Source: Streptomyces noursei ATCC 11455 (GTDB lineage Bacteria; Actinomycetota; Actinomycetes; Streptomycetales; Streptomycetaceae). Taken from it: DNA of 64,000 nucleotides. Positions within the stretch are counted from its first letter, which is position 1, and each line of letters begins with the position of its first letter. The stretch spans positions 9,362,001 through 9,426,000 of the forward strand of contig NZ_CP011533.1 of the NCBI RefSeq assembly GCF_001704275.1, in the 5' to 3' direction. Positions 28,287-46,628 of the stretch are shown here, piece by piece. Under the pieces are notes generated by a model. It saw nothing but the letters and a program-made list of their open reading frames with translations, had not been told where the DNA came from and did not search any database. Position numbers and translations under genes: made by a program.

Positions 28287-30040
28287 GGGCTTGCCGATCA
28301 ATAACTCGCCGTCTTGATCTCTGATGGGCAGGTGATGCCTGCCGCCGCTGCGAAAGCCTGGAGGTCTTCGAGGGCGGCGAGACGGGTGTCGGCGGGATGA
28401 ACGGTGTATCCGGCGGTGTCGAGGAGCTGGCGGATGTCGCGGATGCGCCGGTTGATGGTTTCGGGTGTGACGGTGAAGAGGCGGGCGACGGTGACCTGCG
28501 GGAGCCCGTGCCGGTAGTGGAGGAGGGCGGCCAGTAGGCGGTCGGCGAGGGTGAGGATGGGACGACGGCCTGTCAGGGGGCCACCCTTGATGCGGGGTCG
28601 GTGGCCACGCCGCTTGTCCAGGTGCGTTTCCCGCTGCTCCTCATGGAGGGCGGTGAGTGTGGAGATCAGCGCATCCCACTCGGCGGGCGGCAGTCCGGTC
28701 AGGGCCGGGTGGCACAGCCAGGCAAGGTCGGGACTGGGCTGATCGAACGGGTCCGGGACATCACTGACCTGGGCATACGGCTCGGGTCGGAGACTGTAGT
28801 TCCAGTCGCCGTGCCAGGCATGACGGTCCAGCGGCAAGGCTGCCATCTGCCGGTCGCCGATGCGGACACCGGTTTCATAGGTGGCGGTGTCGAGTTCGGA
28901 GCGGATGGTCAGGCCGGTGCGGGTGGTGGTCGCCGCGATGCTGTTCACGATGACTTCGTGGCTGGTCAGGGGCTTGCCTCGCCAGTTCATGGTGATGTGG
29001 GAGAACAGCCGGTGTTCCACTTTGTTCCATTTTGATGTGCCTGGAGGATAGTGACACACGGCGATCTCCAGGCCCGTCTCCAGGGCCAGCGCGGCGAGTT
29101 CGGCCTTCCAGGCACGGGTGCGATAGCCGTTGGAGCCGCCCGCGTCCGCAGTGATCAGCAGGCGGCCTGAGCGCGGGTACGCGGCGCGGCCCACCGCGTG
29201 CCACCAGCGGCGCAACGTCTGGACGGCGAAGGCGGCGGTGTCGTGGTCGGTGCCGACGCTGACCCAGCCAGCATCCGCGGCCAGGTCGTAGATCCCGTAT
29301 GGGATCGCCTTGCCCAGGTCGGCGTCGGGAAAGTCATGGGTACGGACCCGGACCGGATCGCCTTCACGACACCACTGGCGGCCGGCGTTCTTGTAGTTGC
29401 CCACCAACTCTTTCTTCTTCGTGTCCACGCTGACCACCGGATCTCCGGCTGCCTGGAACTGTTTGGCCTGCTCGTTGATGTAGCGGAACTGTGCGTCCCG
29501 GTCCGGGTGCTGGGCGCCCTCGATGGTCTTGGCGTTGCCCTGGAGGCTGAAGCCCTCCTCCCGCAGCAGCACGGCAACCGTGTCCGCCGAGACCCGATGG
29601 CCCTGCCGCGTCAGCTCGGCCGCCAGGTGCCGGGTCGACTTCACCGTCCAGCGCAGCGGCGACATCGGATCCCCACGCATGTCCGGCTCGACCAGGGCCA
29701 GCAGCGCGGGCCGCAGCCCCTGATCGAGATCGACCGCGCGCTTGCGCCCGCCGCCCTCCCGACGGACACGTCCCAACGGTGCCTGGCCGGACTCAAGTTC
29801 TCTCACGCCGCGCGAAACGGTGCCCTCCCGGACCCCGGCCGCGCGGGCGACGAGCTTGATCCCGCCGTGTCCCAGTGACCGTGCTTCTGCTCCTATAGCC
29901 AGCCGCCGTTGACGCTCGTCGAGATGCGGGAACAGCGTCTCGAACTTCGCGGTCAGTGCGGCTTCGATCCCCTCCGGTCTCCCCATACCACAACAACGAG
30001 CCTCGAAGCCGGAAGCGACGGCTTGTTTCCCGGCAAGCCC
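28287..30040. mobile_element. ISAzo13-like insertion sequence, copy 1 (1754 bp)
   Basis: Terminal inverted repeats GGGCTTGCCG at both ends and a 3-bp duplication TAA (28284-28286 and 30041-30043). One transposase gene fills it. A second, apparently identical 1754-bp copy is at 44875-46628 with a different target duplication, so the element has moved recently. Confidence 0.9.
28298..29986 (-). CDS. ISAzo13 family transposase
   Basis: 562 aa. N-terminal helix-turn-helix (GIKLVARAAGVREGTVSRGV), then the DDE core with VSVDTKKKELVGNYKN (first Asp), LLITADAGGSNGYR (second Asp) and HYPPGTSKWNKVEHRLFSHI (catalytic Glu), the block that defines this family. A C-terminal extension of about 130 aa carries another helix-turn-helix (VTVARLFTVTPETINRRIRD). 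The frame is intact. Confidence 0.93.
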   Translation of the reverse strand: MGRPEGIEAALTAKFETLFPHLDERQRRLAIGAEARSLGHGGIKLVARAAGVREGTVSRGVRELESGQAPLGRVRREGGGRKRAVDLDQGLRPALLALVEPDMRGDPMSPLRWTVKSTRHLAAELTRQGHRVSADTVAVLLREEGFSLQGNAKTIEGAQHPDRDAQFRYINEQAKQFQAAGDPVVSVDTKKKELVGNYKNAGRQWCREGDPVRVRTHDFPDADLGKAIPYGIYDLAADAGWVSVGTDHDTAAFAVQTLRRWWHAVGRAAYPRSGRLLITADAGGSNGYRTRAWKAELAALALETGLEIAVCHYPPGTSKWNKVEHRLFSHITMNWRGKPLTSHEVIVNSIAATTTRTGLTIRSELDTATYETGVRIGDRQMAALPLDRHAWHGDWNYSLRPEPYAQVSDVPDPFDQPSPDLAWLCHPALTGLPPAEWDALISTLTALHEEQRETHLDKRRGHRPRIKGGPLTGRRPILTLADRLLAALLHYRHGLPQVTVARLFTVTPETINRRIRDIRQLLDTAGYTVHPADTRLAALEDLQAFAAAAGITCPSEIKTASY

Positions 30041-31632: not shown

Positions 31633-32532
31633 TTATGCGGCTGGTGTCGGCGTAGTTGATGTTGTTTCGGAGGCTGTCTCGTAGGCGATCGGGCTGCGTT
31701 GTCCGAGGCGGGAGTGACGGCGTCGGGTGTTGTAGCGGTTGAGCCAGCGGAACGCGTCGAGGCGAGCTTCGCGTTCACTGGACCAGGTCCTGCGGCCCTG
31801 GAGTGTCTCGCGTTTGAACGTTGCGTTGAAGGACTCGGCGAGCGCGTTGTCCGCGCTGGAGCCGATGGCGCTCATGGACTGACGGACGCCGGCTTGGCGG
31901 CAGGCGTCGGCGAAGGCTCGGCTGGTGTACTGGGCGCCGTGGTCGGTGTGCATGACCGCTCCGGCGAGGCTGCCGCGGGTATGTTCGGCGGCGGCCAGGG
32001 CGTCGGTGACGAGGTCGGTGCGCATGTGGTCCGCGATCGCCCAGCCGGCCAGGCGGCGTGAGGCGAGGTCGATGACAGTGGCCAGATACAGGAACTTCCC
32101 GCCGTCCAGCGGGAGATAGGTAATGTCGCCGACGTACTTCGTGTTCGGCTCGCTTGCCGTGAAGTCGCGGCCGATGAGGTCCGGGGCCTTCGCCGCGGCC
32201 GGGTCCGCGACAGTGGTGCGATGCCTGCGACGCAGCCGCACGCCTGCCAGGCCGATGCTGCGCATCACCCGCGCGATCCGCTTGTGGTTGACGCGCTCAC
32301 CCGCCTCGCGGAGCTCGGCGGTGATCCTGGGGACGCCATAGGTGCCGTCCGACTCACGGTGCACGGCCCGTATCCGGACGGCGAGGCGAGCGTCGGCCGC
32401 CGCCCGGGCGGCCCGATCCGCGGCCGTTCGACGCCAGTAGTAGAAACTGGAACGGGCGATGCCGAGGATGGTGCACAGCCGCTTCACGCCGTAGCGGCGG
32501 TGGTGGTCGGCAACGAACTGGAAGCGGTTCAC
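31633..32532 (-). CDS. IS3 family transposase OrfB (integrase core)
   Basis: 299 aa from a GTG. HTH_21 region (YGVKRLCTILGIARSSFYYW), then the rve DDE domain: YVGDITYLP (first Asp), HTDHGAQYTS (second Asp) and NALAESFNATFKRE (Glu). The frame is full length. The GTG lies ten bases from the 3' end of the outer intron, and in the spliced sequence it would overlap the orfA stop codon as usual for IS3 elements. Confidence 0.93.
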   Translation of the reverse strand: MNRFQFVADHHRRYGVKRLCTILGIARSSFYYWRRTAADRAARAAADARLAVRIRAVHRESDGTYGVPRITAELREAGERVNHKRIARVMRSIGLAGVRLRRRHRTTVADPAAAKAPDLIGRDFTASEPNTKYVGDITYLPLDGGKFLYLATVIDLASRRLAGWAIADHMRTDLVTDALAAAEHTRGSLAGAVMHTDHGAQYTSRAFADACRQAGVRQSMSAIGSSADNALAESFNATFKRETLQGRRTWSSEREARLDAFRWLNRYNTRRRHSRLGQRSPIAYETASETTSTTPTPAA

Positions 32533-32541
32533 CAGCGCGTC

Positions 32542-32615
32542 GCCGAGTAGCCGGAGGGGATTTCACCCTCCGGCCCTCACAGAACGGAGCGTGACGATCT
32601 CTCGTCACTCCGCTC
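32542..32615 (-). ncRNA. Domain V and VI of the outer group II intron
   Basis: Domain V occupies 32581-32615, a 35-nt hairpin starting GAGCGGAGTGACGAGAG; domain VI (32542-32580) has an 8-bp stem CCGGAGGG / CCCTCCGG and branch-site A in CTACTC. Confidence 0.8.
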
Positions 32616-32630
32616 TTGTCGTCCTGATCG

Positions 32631-33896
32631 TCAGACCAGCACGGCACTCACAGTCGGAGTGATGCGCCAGTGCGCGAACATGCCGGGGTATCGCCGGGCG
32701 ATCTCCTGCATTTTCGCTAGCGCCTTCCGTTTTGCCGCGAGCCGTTTGTACTTCTTGCGGATCCAACGCACCAGGTAGGAGTTGATGCGTGTCACGAAGG
32801 AGGTCAACTCCCAGGGCCTGAAATGCCCGTAGTAGTTGATCCAGCCCGCCACGACAGGGTTGATCCTTCGGGCGAGCTCTTGAAAGGTCAGATCGGTGCG
32901 GGTGTGCAGATGCCAGCTCCGCACTTCCCGGCCCATCTTCTTGAGAGCGTCCTTGCTAACCGCCGGGTCAAACGCCAGGAACTGGTTCCCGTGCCGACTC
33001 CGGTTCCTCCTGGCGCGGAAGGTGTATCCCAGGAACGTGAACGCCGTGTGCTCGTAGGAGTGTTGGCGATTCCCGTCCCGGCAGTACACGATCCGGGTCT
33101 TGGCCGGGTGCAGGCGCAGCTCGACCTCGGCCATCCTGTCCGTGAGCGCGGCCAGCACCTGGCGGGCCTGGCGCTCGGTGACGCAGTGCAGTACCGCATC
33201 GTCCGCGTAGCGTTCGAACCAGACGGACGGATACTCCCGGGCCATCCAGGCGTCGAGCGCGTAGTGCAGGAACAGGTTCGCCAGGACGGGAGACACGGGA
33301 GCCCCTTGTGGGGTTCCGCGATCCCGTTGCAGCAGAGAGCCGTCGGGCATCTGGAGCGGGGCGGCGAGCCACCTCCGCACATACAAGTTCACCCAGACGG
33401 CGTCAGTGTGCGCTTCCACCGCCTTGACCAGTAGGTCCCAGGGCACGCTGTCGAAGAACTTGGCGATGTCGAACTCGACCACCCAGTCCCGTTTCCAACA
33501 GCGTTCCCGGCATTTTTCCACCGCGTCCAAGGCGGACCGTCCGGGCCGGTATCCGTAGCTGTCGGGATGGAAAATCGGCTCCACCCTCCGCATAAGATGC
33601 CGGGCCACGACGGTCTGAGCCACGCGATCGGCGACGGCGGGAATTCCGAGCATTCTCTCGCCGCCTCCCTGTGGCTTGGGAATCGCCACCGCGCGCACCG
33701 GAGGTGGGAAGTATGAGCCTGACGACATTCTGTTCCAGACTTTGTAGAGGTTGTTCCTCAGGTCCTTCTCGAAGTCGTCGATGCTCTGCCCGTCCACTCC
33801 CGGTGCTCCCCTATTCGCTCTGACTTCCTCCCATGCCTCCTTGACTTCCCACTTTGAGATCTCAAACGGCTTGGTCTGCGACTTCAACTGGTCCAC
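32631..33896 (-). CDS. ltrA: Group II intron reverse transcriptase/maturase (outer intron)
   Basis: 421 aa from a GTG with GGGAGGAG upstream, the same start layout as the inner intron gene; the open frame continues 83 codons further but is noncoding intron RNA. RT blocks: GVDGQSIDDFEKDL, SYGYRPGRSALDAV, FDIAKFFDSV, RGTPQGAPVSPVLANLFLHY and catalytic YADD. A maturase domain X (INPVVAGWINYYGHF) closes it, and the HNH endonuclease is absent, as in RmInt1-like lineages. The gene lies in domain IV and appears intact. Confidence 0.93.
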   Translation of the reverse strand: MDQLKSQTKPFEISKWEVKEAWEEVRANRGAPGVDGQSIDDFEKDLRNNLYKVWNRMSSGSYFPPPVRAVAIPKPQGGGERMLGIPAVADRVAQTVVARHLMRRVEPIFHPDSYGYRPGRSALDAVEKCRERCWKRDWVVEFDIAKFFDSVPWDLLVKAVEAHTDAVWVNLYVRRWLAAPLQMPDGSLLQRDRGTPQGAPVSPVLANLFLHYALDAWMAREYPSVWFERYADDAVLHCVTERQARQVLAALTDRMAEVELRLHPAKTRIVYCRDGNRQHSYEHTAFTFLGYTFRARRNRSRHGNQFLAFDPAVSKDALKKMGREVRSWHLHTRTDLTFQELARRINPVVAGWINYYGHFRPWELTSFVTRINSYLVRWIRKKYKRLAAKRKALAKMQEIARRYPGMFAHWRITPTVSAVLV

Positions 33897-34362
33897 CGAA
33901 CTCCTCCCGGACACCGCCCGGTTGATGCGATCAACACAGTCACGAACGACCCGGCCCCTTCGCTCCACCCCCATTACAGGGGCTTCACCACTACTACGAG
34001 CCGGTCCGCCAGCACGCCCCGCATCGGTACTCAGCCCCTCGCAGTGTCCGCTGCTTGAGGCGCTCCCTCTCGCCGCCGCTGCACGGCGGGCAGTATCGGG
34101 GCTTGCCTTCTCCTGTTCCATGCGGAAGCCGCAGACCAGGCTCACGTCGCCTGCATGCCGGACACCACCTGGCCAATAGGCGGGCTCCCACCAGGCTCAT
34201 CCCGAAGTTCAGGGAACACCCCGGTTTTGATGTCGTCTGTTTTCGTTTCGACACGTCAGCAGCGATTCACTTGCGTTCGTCTTCCCGGTCCCCACCTGAC
34301 GCCTTTTACGGCGCCTTTTCCTCATCGCTCACCACGACAGTCTTCGGCTAACGCGGCATGAG

Positions 34363-34437
34363 GTCGAGTAGCCGGGGGGAAATTTCACCCCCCGGCCCTC
34401 ACAGATCCCGGCGTGACAGTCTCCCGTCACCGGGCTC
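34363..34437 (-). ncRNA. Domain V and VI of the inner group II intron
   Basis: Domain V at 34403-34437 begins GAGCCCGGTGACGGGAG; domain VI at 34363-34402 has a CCGGGGGG stem with branch A in CTACTC. Both match the outer intron's hairpins in length and order. Confidence 0.8.
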
Positions 34438-34449
34438 TTGTCATCCTGG

Positions 34450-35706
34450 TCACCAGAACGTGGGAACCCATGCCCAGTGGGCAAAGAGCCTGGGGTACTG
34501 ACGCGTGATACGCCGCCAGCACGCGTGGGCCTTCTTGAAGGTCCGCAGCCGCTTGAACTTCTTTCGGATCCAGCGCATCAAGTAGGCGTTGATACGCTCC
34601 AGGAGAGGAAGCAGAGCTGTCCGGTAAAACGCACCGAAGTACTGCATCCAGCCCCGAACGATCGGATTGATCGCCCGTGCGAGCTCAGCGAAGGTCCGGC
34701 CGACCTGTCGGTGAAGCCGCCATTGCCGCACTTCACCACTGATCTTCTTCGAGGCTTCCTTGCTGATCGCCGGCAGGAACGAGGTGAACCTCTCCCCGTT
34801 CCTGTCGATGGCCTTGCGGGCTCGGAAAGTGAACCCCAGGAAGGTGAACTCCGTCTGCCCGTAGGACCGTCGGCGCTTCTTGCCATCCCGGCAGTACACG
34901 ATCTTGGTTTTGTCGGGATGCAGCCGCAGCCCAACTTCCCGCATCCTGTTCGCGATTGCCTCCCGCAGTTTCCGGGCCTGACTCTCGCTGACGCAGTGCA
35001 CAACACCGTCGTCTGCGTACCGTTCGAACGGCACGCCCGGGAACTCCCGGGCCATCCACATGTCGAACGCATAATGCATGAACAGGTTGGCCAGCACAGG
35101 CGAAATCGCAGAACCCTGTGGGGTCCCACGATCACGCCGCTGCAAGGTCCCGTCAGGCAGTTGCAACGGAGCCTCAAGCCACCGCCGCACATACATCACC
35201 ACCCATGGGAGATCGGTGTGGGCCTGGACCGCCTTGACCACGAGGTTCCATGGCACGCTGTCGAAGAATTTCTGGATGTCCAGATCGATCACCCAGTCGT
35301 ACTTCCAGCAGCGTTTCCGGCATGCCGCGACCGCATCCAACGCGGACCGCCCAGGACGGTAACCATAGGAGTCCTGATGGAAGATCGGCTCGACCTTCTC
35401 CTCAAGACGCCGGGCTACCACAGTCTGGGCGATCCGGTCAGCTACGGTGGGCACTCCGAGCAAACGAACCCCGCTACCATGCGACTTCGGAATCTCCACA
35501 CCTTTTACCGGAGGGGGAAAGCAGCTCCCCGAGGATAGACGGTTCCAGATCCGATAGAGATTATTCTTCAGATCCTTCTCGAAGTCCTCGATGGAGCGCC
35601 CGTCCACCCCTGGCGCGCCCTTGTTGGCCTTGACCTTCTCGTACGCCTCCTGCACCTCCCATTTCGAGACGTCAAACGGCTTGCCTGATGATTTCAACTG
35701 ATCCAC
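34450..35706 (-). CDS. ltrA: Group II intron reverse transcriptase/maturase (inner intron)
   Basis: 418 aa from a GTG preceded by GGGAGGAG. Same domain order as the outer protein but clearly diverged: GVDGRSIEDFEKDL, SYGYRPGRSALDAV, LDIQKFFDSV, RGTPQGSAISPVLANLF, catalytic YADD, then domain X with INPIVRGWMQYFGAF. No HNH endonuclease. The frame is intact. The two proteins are related but not copies, so the introns are distinct lineages rather than a duplication. Confidence 0.93.
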   Translation of the reverse strand: MDQLKSSGKPFDVSKWEVQEAYEKVKANKGAPGVDGRSIEDFEKDLKNNLYRIWNRLSSGSCFPPPVKGVEIPKSHGSGVRLLGVPTVADRIAQTVVARRLEEKVEPIFHQDSYGYRPGRSALDAVAACRKRCWKYDWVIDLDIQKFFDSVPWNLVVKAVQAHTDLPWVVMYVRRWLEAPLQLPDGTLQRRDRGTPQGSAISPVLANLFMHYAFDMWMAREFPGVPFERYADDGVVHCVSESQARKLREAIANRMREVGLRLHPDKTKIVYCRDGKKRRRSYGQTEFTFLGFTFRARKAIDRNGERFTSFLPAISKEASKKISGEVRQWRLHRQVGRTFAELARAINPIVRGWMQYFGAFYRTALLPLLERINAYLMRWIRKKFKRLRTFKKAHACWRRITRQYPRLFAHWAWVPTFW

Positions 35707-36410
35707 CCAGCTCCTCCCGGAGAACTTCCGGTTGACCGAACGAACAATCAGTCACGGATGACCCGGCCCCTTCGCTCCCCCTTCATTACAAAGGGTTCAT
35801 CACTACTACGAGCCGGTCCGCCAGCAAGCCCCGCATCGGTACTCAAGCCCTCACGGTTCCTCCGCTTGGGCCGCTCCCTCTCGCCACCCGTATCAGAGCA
35901 GCACTATCGGGGCTTGCCTTCTCACGTTCCATGCGAAAGCCGCAGATCAGGCTCACGTCGCCTCCGTGCCGGACACCGCCTGGCCAGTAAACGGGACCCC
36001 CGCCAGACTTATCCCGGAGCAACCACAAATCTCCGGTTCTGATGTCACCTGTTTTCTAACGACACTTCAGCAGCGATTCACTTGCGTTCGTCTTCCTGAT
36101 CCCCACCTGACGGCTCTACCGCCGCCTTTTCCACATCGCTCACCACGACGGTCGTCAACCAACGCAGCATGTGGCGGTTTGGCACCATCCCCCGCAGGAC
36201 GGCACCGAAGGGCCGAATCCCTCATCTCTCGCACAGCACCGCATCGTGAAGCTCTCCCTACCTGAACTCCCCTCTGCGTTCGTGACACACGCGGTTTGAA
36301 GCCTCCCCCCGCAGGGCGGCTCCGAAGGGCCACAAAACCTTCATCTTCCGCACAGCACCACTCTTGAAAAGTTGTCCTACAACCAACTCCCCTTCGTGCT
36401 CAGGACACAA

Positions 36411-36697
36411 TCCCCGGCGAAATACTTCGCCGCCTTGCGCAGGATCTCGCGTTCCTCCTCCAACTCGCGGACCTTCTTCCGCAGAGCGGCGTTCTCCGCC
36501 TCCAACGGCGTCGGCGGCTCGGTCGGCACCTCCGCTCGGCGTCCCCGCGGCCGGCTCGCGCCGGCTGCCCGGACCCAGTTCCGCAAGGTCTCGGGATTGA
36601 TCCCCAGATCGGCAGCGACCTGCCGGATCGTCGCCCCGGGCCGCGACTGGTACAACGCGACCGCGTCCACCTTGAACTGCGGCGGATAGTTCTTCAT
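36411..36697 (-). CDS. IS3 family OrfA (exon upstream of the introns)
   Basis: Helix-turn-helix protein (GATIRQVAADLGINPETLRN) with a leucine-zipper-like helix (ENAALRKKVRELEEEREIL) ending at KYFAG. In the genome the frame runs on into the intron for about ten codons. After exact intron removal it would end GETRW-stop with the orfB GTG overlapping the stop, the standard IS3 layout. ATG at 36697; a GTG two codons earlier is possible. Confidence 0.85.
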
Positions 36698-36768
36698 GAC
36701 CACGAGATGCCCGTTCTCAGATCCTCAGGATCCAGTGTCTCGCGTGTCCAGGATCAAGGGTCAAGGCT

Positions 36769-44101: not shown

Positions 44102-44380
44102 TACTGACCTGTAGTCGCGGTGTCGTGAGTGTGAGTCCGGTGCCGGTGAGGCATCCGTCGATGATGTCGCTGCGGTATTGGATTTGGCGGAGGCCGTGTC
44201 GGAGCCGGCGCATGAGGTGGTCCGGGTCGGTGAAGGCGGTGTTGGCCTGGGTGGTGCGGCGGAGGATCGACCAGATGCCCTCGACCGGATTGAGGTCGGG
44301 TGCATAGGGCGGCAGGTGGTAGGCCGAGATCCAGTCCTGCGCGTCGATGAAGGCGCGCATCCGGCGGTCTTTGTGGACAG
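44102..44380 (-). pseudogene. IS630-family transposase C-terminal fragment
   Basis: HKDRRMRAFIDAQDWISAYH and LPPYAPDLNPVEGIWSILRR are the characteristic C-terminal DDE region; QYRSDIIDGCLTGTGL ends it. The N-terminal part is missing, replaced by a group II intron 3' end. Confidence 0.85.
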
Positions 44381-44511
44381 TGAAGTCGATCCGGGGCGCG
44401 GTTCCGGTCTTGTCGACCGGCCCGTTTCCCCAGACCGCTTCCCGCACCCGGCGTGCCCGTTTCCGAGCACCGGGCGCTCCACAAGTCCTGCTCAAAACCT
44501 GTGTGTTGTCC

Positions 44512-44874
44512 TCATTCCAGGCCAGGCCATGGAGTCGGGATGACTGTTCCCCGGTAGCGGTAACGCGTGGTGGTTACCTTCGCGGGGTTGAACAGTGGCC
44601 TTTCCTCCGAGGCCGGCCACCATCCGACGTCGCAGTAGCGGCGGCGTAGGTCCTTCCAGGTGGACCGGCGGTGTTTGCGGCGCAGCCAGCTCCCGACCTG
44701 GCGCCACGTGTAGTAGCTCAGGTAGGAGAAGGTCGCGCTGGACACGCCGGGCCGGAAGTAGACGCACCAGCCCTTGAGCGCAGGGTTGAGCTGACGCAGC
44801 AGGGCGTCGAGCGGCTGGCTCGTGTCCGTTGTCCGGCACATCGTCCTGACCTTGCCGGTCTTGCCGGATGGATA
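44512..44874 (-). pseudogene. Group II intron maturase, C-terminal piece
   Basis: Carries LRQLNPALKGWCVYFRPGVS (maturase domain X) and a W-RRYC region, ending PTPWPGLE. Separated from its RT domain by the 1754-bp element; joining across one copy of the ATA duplication gives a continuous frame (HYIYTYPSGKTGKV). Confidence 0.85.
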
Positions 44875-46628
44875 GGGCTTGCCGATCAATAACTCGCCGT
44901 CTTGATCTCTGATGGGCAGGTGATGCCTGCCGCCGCTGCGAAAGCCTGGAGGTCTTCGAGGGCGGCGAGACGGGTGTCGGCGGGATGAACGGTGTATCCG
45001 GCGGTGTCGAGGAGCTGGCGGATGTCGCGGATGCGCCGGTTGATGGTTTCGGGTGTGACGGTGAAGAGGCGGGCGACGGTGACCTGCGGGAGCCCGTGCC
45101 GGTAGTGGAGGAGGGCGGCCAGTAGGCGGTCGGCGAGGGTGAGGATGGGACGACGGCCTGTCAGGGGGCCACCCTTGATGCGGGGTCGGTGGCCACGCCG
45201 CTTGTCCAGGTGCGTTTCCCGCTGCTCCTCATGGAGGGCGGTGAGTGTGGAGATCAGCGCATCCCACTCGGCGGGCGGCAGTCCGGTCAGGGCCGGGTGG
45301 CACAGCCAGGCAAGGTCGGGACTGGGCTGATCGAACGGGTCCGGGACATCACTGACCTGGGCATACGGCTCGGGTCGGAGACTGTAGTTCCAGTCGCCGT
45401 GCCAGGCATGACGGTCCAGCGGCAAGGCTGCCATCTGCCGGTCGCCGATGCGGACACCGGTTTCATAGGTGGCGGTGTCGAGTTCGGAGCGGATGGTCAG
45501 GCCGGTGCGGGTGGTGGTCGCCGCGATGCTGTTCACGATGACTTCGTGGCTGGTCAGGGGCTTGCCTCGCCAGTTCATGGTGATGTGGGAGAACAGCCGG
45601 TGTTCCACTTTGTTCCATTTTGATGTGCCTGGAGGATAGTGACACACGGCGATCTCCAGGCCCGTCTCCAGGGCCAGCGCGGCGAGTTCGGCCTTCCAGG
45701 CACGGGTGCGATAGCCGTTGGAGCCGCCCGCGTCCGCAGTGATCAGCAGGCGGCCTGAGCGCGGGTACGCGGCGCGGCCCACCGCGTGCCACCAGCGGCG
45801 CAACGTCTGGACGGCGAAGGCGGCGGTGTCGTGGTCGGTGCCGACGCTGACCCAGCCAGCATCCGCGGCCAGGTCGTAGATCCCGTATGGGATCGCCTTG
45901 CCCAGGTCGGCGTCGGGAAAGTCATGGGTACGGACCCGGACCGGATCGCCTTCACGACACCACTGGCGGCCGGCGTTCTTGTAGTTGCCCACCAACTCTT
46001 TCTTCTTCGTGTCCACGCTGACCACCGGATCTCCGGCTGCCTGGAACTGTTTGGCCTGCTCGTTGATGTAGCGGAACTGTGCGTCCCGGTCCGGGTGCTG
46101 GGCGCCCTCGATGGTCTTGGCGTTGCCCTGGAGGCTGAAGCCCTCCTCCCGCAGCAGCACGGCAACCGTGTCCGCCGAGACCCGATGGCCCTGCCGCGTC
46201 AGCTCGGCCGCCAGGTGCCGGGTCGACTTCACCGTCCAGCGCAGCGGCGACATCGGATCCCCACGCATGTCCGGCTCGACCAGGGCCAGCAGCGCGGGCC
46301 GCAGCCCCTGATCGAGATCGACCGCGCGCTTGCGCCCGCCGCCCTCCCGACGGACACGTCCCAACGGTGCCTGGCCGGACTCAAGTTCTCTCACGCCGCG
46401 CGAAACGGTGCCCTCCCGGACCCCGGCCGCGCGGGCGACGAGCTTGATCCCGCCGTGTCCCAGTGACCGTGCTTCTGCTCCTATAGCCAGCCGCCGTTGA
46501 CGCTCGTCGAGATGCGGGAACAGCGTCTCGAACTTCGCGGTCAGTGCGGCTTCGATCCCCTCCGGTCTCCCCATACCACAACAACGAGCCTCGAAGCCGG
46601 AAGCGACGGCTTGTTTCCCGGCAAGCCC
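44875..46628. mobile_element. ISAzo13-like insertion sequence, copy 2 (1754 bp)
   Basis: Same ends as copy 1 (GGGCTTGCCG); target duplication ATA (44872-44874 and 46629-46631). Inserted in the maturase gene of the third group II intron. Confidence 0.93.
44886..46574 (-). CDS. ISAzo13 family transposase, copy 2
   Basis: 562 aa, the same protein as at 28298 with all DDE blocks intact. The open frame continues upstream of the ATG into maturase sequence, giving a 759-codon frame that is a chance fusion and not a real protein. Confidence 0.92.
   Translation of the reverse strand: MGRPEGIEAALTAKFETLFPHLDERQRRLAIGAEARSLGHGGIKLVARAAGVREGTVSRGVRELESGQAPLGRVRREGGGRKRAVDLDQGLRPALLALVEPDMRGDPMSPLRWTVKSTRHLAAELTRQGHRVSADTVAVLLREEGFSLQGNAKTIEGAQHPDRDAQFRYINEQAKQFQAAGDPVVSVDTKKKELVGNYKNAGRQWCREGDPVRVRTHDFPDADLGKAIPYGIYDLAADAGWVSVGTDHDTAAFAVQTLRRWWHAVGRAAYPRSGRLLITADAGGSNGYRTRAWKAELAALALETGLEIAVCHYPPGTSKWNKVEHRLFSHITMNWRGKPLTSHEVIVNSIAATTTRTGLTIRSELDTATYETGVRIGDRQMAALPLDRHAWHGDWNYSLRPEPYAQVSDVPDPFDQPSPDLAWLCHPALTGLPPAEWDALISTLTALHEEQRETHLDKRRGHRPRIKGGPLTGRRPILTLADRLLAALLHYRHGLPQVTVARLFTVTPETINRRIRDIRQLLDTAGYTVHPADTRLAALEDLQAFAAAAGITCPSEIKTASY

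Follow-up and report, generated by a model that had tools for sequence, protein, structure and literature searches.

Euglena plastid twintrons, in which one intron lies within another, mostly consist of degenerate introns without a maturase of their own. Group II twintrons are also an already known kind in bacteria and archaea, with examples in Trichodesmium, Thermosynechococcus and Methanosarcina. In Trichodesmium erythraeum, the pair Tr.e.I7/Tr.e.I8 splices sequentially in vivo (PMC4649490), and a further study, which mentions twintrons in T. elongatus and Wolbachia, states that its pipeline cannot detect the outer intron (PMC8919778); its passages on the subject refer to Streptomyces in the legend of a figure only. 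Among the open-access titles surveyed, none concerning a twintron from Streptomyces was noticed, which is weak evidence of absence. Here we describe a twintron in Streptomyces noursei ATCC 11455, inside an insertion sequence (IS) of the IS3 family, within a stretch of 64,000 nucleotides (contig NZ_CP011533.1, positions 9,362,001–9,426,000 of the 9.8-Mb genome; hereafter the window). It very probably arose by two successive retrohoming events, the inner intron belonging to a lineage apparently specialised on group II introns. The initial annotation of this sequence called twintrons rare in bacteria, which fits the literature consulted; the kind was already known, including insertion into domain I in Trichodesmium (PMC4649490).

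Two nested group II introns in an IS3 element

The minus strand of the window carries two nested group II introns at exactly the bases given by the initial annotation (Table 1): an outer intron of 1941 nt, once its two segments are joined, and an inner intron of 1928 nt. The joined outer and the inner are colinear at 73% identity (1394 of 1921 columns), and their alignment crosses the join ungapped. As annotated, the first 120 nt of the outer align with the 5' end of the inner, and the continuation of the outer begins after the inner 3' end. E-values near zero for the intron matches exclude chance, and misassembly is less likely because the genome is a single contig.

The outer boundaries are defined by empty copies of the host element. 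The IS3 part upstream of the outer intron (36411–36703, 293 nt) has twelve matches in the same genome, comprising itself, six full-length copies at 97–99% identity and five short matches of 44–89 bases. All six other full-length copies are free of introns, reading GGGGA/GACGCG (GGGGA/GACGCGCTGG; the slash marks the junction) continuously at exactly the position of the outer intron, 36411/32541. The full 909-nt downstream part is present in five of the six, the remaining one (L059) retaining 132 nt of it, and the match of the element to its empty copies reaches roughly from 31.59 to 36.78 kb. Transposase matches agree with the annotated IS3 host: orfB scores 317 bits with NF033516 (IS3 transposase), above the cut-off of 160, and orfA 54.9 bits, below it.

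For the inner boundaries, the genus was searched with the outer 3' segment; 118 of 392 genomes matched, many by short stretches, and 20 regions were taken. The joined outer aligns over its full length and without a break to eight single-copy relatives, which are 84–87% identical to it, the values over all 1941 nt being 87.0% for L033, 86.6% for L034 and 85.6% for L036. Across 36291/34362, relatives that lack the inner have CAAACCGC/CTCATGC or a similar sequence, and since they read straight across the insertion point, the inner entered precisely, with neither duplication nor loss, as in reverse splicing. One intron thus lies inside another, and the two readings under which the annotated nest would have failed, namely a 5' segment that does not complete domain I of the outer or two introns in tandem, are contradicted by the end-to-end match of the joined outer and by the empty sites for both introns.

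Both introns retain the parts attributed to them. Each has a domain V/VI match to RF00029 above the gathering cut-off of 40 bits, with the branch-point adenosine placed by eye at 32548 in the outer and 34369 in the inner (bases checked), and each has an open reading frame (ORF) for a reverse transcriptase (RT)/maturase matched by Pfam and TIGR04416, with start and stop codons checked on the sequence. The two maturases are 65% identical, and an endonuclease domain is not among the Pfam matches of either; among proteins of solved structure, those closest in sequence to the inner maturase are RTs of group II introns, GsI-IIC RT being one example. For domains I–IV, the Rfam model D1D4-2 (RF01999) matches the inner intron once at full strength (99.6 bits), whereas the outer, scanned in its interrupted form, gives two weak matches (51.7 and 36.7 bits), each crossing a junction, as expected of an interrupted copy. 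An uninterrupted outer relative (L033) scores 95.5 bits, and the interrupted relatives L041, L070 and L073 likewise show one strong match with one or two weak ones.

The inner intron lies within domain I of the outer, as the relatives indicate, and as does a consensus fold computed for the initial ~560 nt of 18 introns other than the joined window outer. In this fold, the insertion point falls in the basal stem of a predicted domain I hairpin (columns 121–166), between paired columns 121 and 122. A few of the higher pairs of the hairpin vary on both sides, for example columns 123–163 in 3 and columns 136–146 in 7 of the 18 introns. Because the insertion falls in this predicted basal stem, excision of the inner before the outer, which the initial annotation took to be obligatory, is the likely order on structural grounds. 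Conservation does not set the target apart: seven columns around site 120 average 95% identity against 86% over the first 400 columns, a level reached by 21% of windows of alignment, and a second site at 139, discussed below, is average (86%). An unoccupied copy of the full target is also found in domain I of the inner intron itself (36174–36179), so that the inner could in principle insert into itself.

Exon pairings and intron ends

Recognition of insertion sites was examined in 31 introns, including both from the window, which were selected as copies with both ends clear rather than as every match; L022, L023, L085 and L105 were left out because their 3' ends were not located. In 26 non-redundant introns (without L035, L039, L042inner, L073inner and L070B), exon-binding site 1 (EBS1) forms 153 of 156 possible pairs with the final six nucleotides of its own 5' exon, 24 of the 26 being perfect; when the exons were shuffled among the introns 10,000 times, no shuffle gave more than 115 pairs, a control that is only partial in that the EBS1 position was chosen by eye once the exons had been seen. 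Scoring in a fixed register gave 162 of 186 pairs over the 31 introns and was replaced by scoring with a shift of one base, applied alike to real and shuffled pairings. With this shift, the window inner, L073inner and L070B (2/6 in fixed register), L072in (1/6) and L024 (4/6) all rise to 6/6, and L035, L041outer and L042inner (5/6) and L021 (4/6) remain imperfect. The third exon-binding site (EBS3) was chosen as the best alignment column, and that column (34153 and 35964 in the window) behaves as EBS3 across the set, complementing the first base of the 3' exon in every intron of the 31 except L070C, by a Watson–Crick pair in 29 of these 30.

The ends of these introns fall into two principal forms. 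The group II consensus is GUGYG...AY (PMC4238363), followed by 20 of the 31 (GTGYG...AY), including the window inner (GTGTG...AC); ten have TTGTG...GC and one has TTGTG...AC. The window outer, TTGTG...GC, departs from the consensus at positions 1 and -2, which is a variant and no bar to group II membership. The first and penultimate intron bases are thought to touch (PMC4238363; PMC3669008), a contact reported for the second splicing step (PMC4238363, citing Chanfreau and Jacquier 1993). Here the two positions are concordant in 30 of 31 introns (20 G1/A-2 and ten U1/G-2, the exception being L072in with U1/A-2) and in 27 of the 28 left when the near-duplicates L035, L039 and L042inner are omitted; the link between position 1 and the first base of the 3' exon is looser. 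A tree of those 28 introns requires six changes at position 1 and five at -2, and a sign test of their covariation was not significant, only three independent well-supported pairs being available. The natural double change of U1/G-2 for G1/A-2 is comparative evidence for the contact.

Other introns of the family have GGGAAAAG or CTGAAAAAAG at their insertion point or immediately before it (L023, L024, L079, L085, L109 and L111). Some of these sites may be transposase orfA sequences, in which case IS transposase genes would be a frequent target. Elsewhere in the window, RF00029 has a third match (domain V, 48.2 bits) on the minus strand at 44380–44900, in a region extending upstream to about 46700. 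It seems to mark what is left of a further group II intron, and apparently inside the RT gene of this remnant, at about 46574, begins a duplicate of the first part of the ORF at 28298–29986.

Table 1. Features of the twintron and its host element in the window
Feature	Position	Strand	Basis and remarks
IS3-family element, split by the twintron	31633..36703	-	orfA 36377-36703 upstream, orfB 31633-32532 downstream; Pfam, NCBIfam
Outer intron, 5' segment	36291..36410	-	120 nt, first part of domain I, starts TTGTG; alignments, empty IS3 sites
Outer intron, 3' segment	32542..34362	-	remainder of domain I through domain VI, 3' end CTCGGC; Rfam, alignments, empty IS3 sites
Inner intron, complete	34363..36290	-	starts GTGTG, ends CTCGAC; Rfam, alignments, 93.7% match in the L073 outer
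Outer RT/maturase ORF	32631..33896	-	GTG start assumed, TGA stop; RVT_1 and GIIM; TIGR04416 398 bits
Inner RT/maturase ORF	34450..35706	-	GTG start assumed, TGA stop; RVT_1 and GIIM; TIGR04416 398 bits
Outer domain V/VI	32542..32617	-	RF00029 54.2 bits
Inner domain V/VI	34363..34439	-	RF00029 56.3 bits
Outer intron-binding site 1 (IBS1) in IS3 orfA (CGGGGA)	36411..36416	-	6/6 with outer EBS1, 2/6 with inner EBS1
Outer EBS1 (UCCCUG)	34210..34215	-	pairing with IS3 CGGGGA; shuffle control
Inner IBS1 in outer domain I (AACCGC)	36291..36296	-	6/6 with inner EBS1, 2/6 with outer EBS1
Inner EBS1 (GUGGUU)	36021..36026	-	register off by one from most relatives
Outer EBS3 (C)	34153	-	pairs with G at 32541; best alignment column, bases checked
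Inner EBS3 (G)	35964	-	pairs with C at 34362; best alignment column, bases checked
Unoccupied copy of inner target (AACCGC then C) in the inner's own domain I	36174..36179	-	sequence match

Related nests and apparent specialisation on introns

A junction pattern, defined as the domain I motif followed by an intron 5' end within 26 nt, was found at six places in five of the 392 same-genus genomes, the window's own included, and its reversed control in none of the 392; a pattern scan of a genome-contig collection returned five stretches (L069 to L073). Of these, the twintron of Streptomyces diastatochromogenes ATCC 12309 (L073) is complete; its inner shares 93.7% identity with the window inner and occupies the same domain I site, whereas the outers of the two twintrons share only 70.9%. 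The ratio of nonsynonymous to synonymous substitution rates (dN/dS) of the window inner maturase is 0.05 against its counterpart in L073, which is read from the two sequences as strong purifying selection.

Actinacidiphila oryziradicis NEAU-C40 (L070) has a three-level nest on a contig of 6.1 kb. Its outermost intron, A (5265–5149 and 1287–about 200), is cut short; B (5148–5011 and 3071–1288) occupies the same site as the window inner, to which it is 92.2% identical, has a frame that looks broken, and gives a dN/dS of 0.16 for the window inner maturase; and C (5010–3072) lies inside B at a second site 19 nt downstream. Near 200 in L070 and near 29 in L044, two different introns are cut near the RT motif TPQG and both continue with GATCACGCCCCCAACGCAATGGGTAACT, which suggests some element targeting the intron RT gene.

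Other nests are damaged. In Streptomyces sp. NBC_01549 (L071, the same sequence as G370 here), the inner occupies the same site and is cut at its base 712, after which the outer resumes at the insertion point (L121 4346/4347; L071 845/846), an arrangement that fits a deletion between two TCGA copies, one of them beside the inner 3' boundary. Further damaged nests occur in G290 and G090. Two identical copies (1931/1931) of one inner at the second site lie in two outers of G300 that are 69.8% alike, which points to two separate recent insertions. In a metagenome-assembled genome (L069), CAAACCGC is followed by no more than about 240 nt resembling the inner, and the presence of an outer is unconfirmed. 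A candidate from Nonomuraea (L072) was taken as a false positive, with no surrounding outer found and a 5' exon unlike domain I.

The inners resolve into two lineages. In the 28-intron tree, the window inner groups with L073inner and L070B (100/100), and L041inner, an inner at the second site, groups with L070C, which is likewise at that site (100/100). The EBS1 of the window inner fits the homologous domain I site at 6/6 in 28 of 31 introns (itself included), because its U accepts G or A (AACCGC, AACCAC), and at 5/6 in the other three. The second lineage appears to home to a position 19 nt further downstream, within the predicted apical loop of the hairpin whose basal stem holds the first site; the EBS1 of the G300 inner (UUAGCU) pairs 6/6 with AGCUGA in one host and 5/6 with UGCUGA in the other, and that of L070C (UCAACC) fits GGUUGA of its B-type host, so that a member of the second lineage seems once to have become matched to the first specialist, giving the three-level nest.

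Searches independent of the site were run at the DNA level on the 392 genus genomes, 394 class genomes and a plasmid collection. Among the genome matches listed, only G370 exceeded 85% identity over more than 200 bases besides the window's own, at 94% over 712 nt and at this site; other listed matches longer than 400 bases stood at 65–79%. In the plasmid collection 461 records matched, the 25 best-ranked at 69–76%, and 18 records, none of them among those 25, had their best place at 80–90% identity. With the whole twintron as query, a phage collection gave one match of 57 bases.

Taken with the pairings, these results incline us to the view that two full-size actinomycete group II intron lineages are specialists on other group II introns and, since their targets lie in the ribozyme core, that the host intron depends on the parasite splicing out.

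Origin of the nest and comparison with known systems

We propose that one IS3 copy first received the outer intron, whose EBS1 is UCCCUG, in its orfA, and that a distinct inner, whose EBS1 (GUGGUU) fits the domain I motif of the family, subsequently reverse-spliced into it after AACCGC and was copied there by its own RT. The inner would splice first and rebuild the domain I hairpin, after which the outer would fold, splice and restore the IS3 transcript, each maturase probably serving its own intron. As judged from the sequences, both insertions are precise, the EBS pairings are present, both ORFs are open, and relatives of the inner reuse the same site in other outers.

Several points weigh against this reading. 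Splicing and its order are predictions from DNA sequence; the two basal stem pairs of the domain I hairpin are invariant and give no covariation support; and the EBS2–IBS2 pairing of the inner appears weak by eye. Some related nests are dead ends, since several have decayed: the inner is cut at 712 nt in G370 and at about 148 nt in G090, is matched only to base 1503 in G290, and has an apparently broken frame in L070B. The pattern searches presuppose the site, which only the DNA searches do not, and the full-length copies from which specialisation is read are few.

The alternative that survives best, and that we nevertheless regard as unlikely, is that the nest is a genomic fossil, formed by precise insertion as proposed but no longer spliced, with the IS3 copy merely inactivated. 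Bacterial group II introns are often lost, related nests have decayed in G370, G090 and at the outermost level of L070, and the intron-free IS3 copies elsewhere in the genome make this copy dispensable. Against decay stand the splicing parts that can be checked, all of them present (both domain V/VI structures, the ORFs, and the EBS1 and EBS3 pairings), and the purifying selection on the inner maturase relative to L073inner.

It is considerably less probable that the outer 5' splice site uses the 3' half of the inner, giving chimeric excision by alternative splicing. The two introns are similar and colinear enough for hybrid domain I folds to be conceivable, domain I of the inner holds another AACCGC with a C after it, and an EBS1 can match foreign exons within the family, that of the outer also fitting the identical CGGGGA exon of L046; but each EBS1 in the window pairs fully with its own 5' exon and poorly with the other's, the products would not restore IS3, and positive evidence is lacking. 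Homologous recombination between tandem introns, for which their relatedness and the alignable 120-nt 5' ends might speak, is very improbable given that empty sites confirm both junctions to the base, that the EBS1 and EBS3 of each intron fit its own exons, that the inner lineage occupies the same site in other, distant outers, and that an identical inner lies in both diverged outers of G300.

Two successive retrohoming events remain our preferred account. The locus provides the full sequence of a twintron from a genus that includes strains amenable to laboratory work; its two introns appear intact, an empty site is available for each, and relatives exist in complete, truncated and triple states. 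This makes it testable whether a mobile intron renders its host intron dependent on it.

Compared with known systems, the nest most resembles Tr.e.I7/Tr.e.I8 in joining two different bacterial group II introns, each with its own intron-encoded protein (IEP) ORF and with the inner in domain I of its host; it differs in the identity between the two IEPs (30% in Trichodesmium, 65% here), in the host (a cellular gene there, an IS3 transposase here) and in its recurrence, a homologous twintron having been unknown in other bacteria for Trichodesmium (PMC4649490), whereas the inner lineage described here recurs in several outers. With TeI3/TeI4 of Thermosynechococcus elongatus it shares the repeated homing of one family to a conserved site of another, leaving identical inners in diverged outers; there, however, the inner lacks an ORF and lies in domain IV, where it separates two start codons belonging to the outer ORF (PMC2882425), whereas here it encodes its own IEP and lies in domain I. 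An inner in domain IV, as in T. elongatus, would not need to block folding of the outer. Methanosarcina acetivorans likewise shows repeated site-specific homing into group II introns on multiple levels, in nests that are archaeal and contain up to five introns, and Euglena plastid twintrons share the arrangement of an intron within an intron, the inner often having to splice before the outer, but are organellar (PMC4424553). What appears to go beyond previously known nests is that the recognition sequence of the inner intron fits the corresponding site in nearly all host relatives examined.

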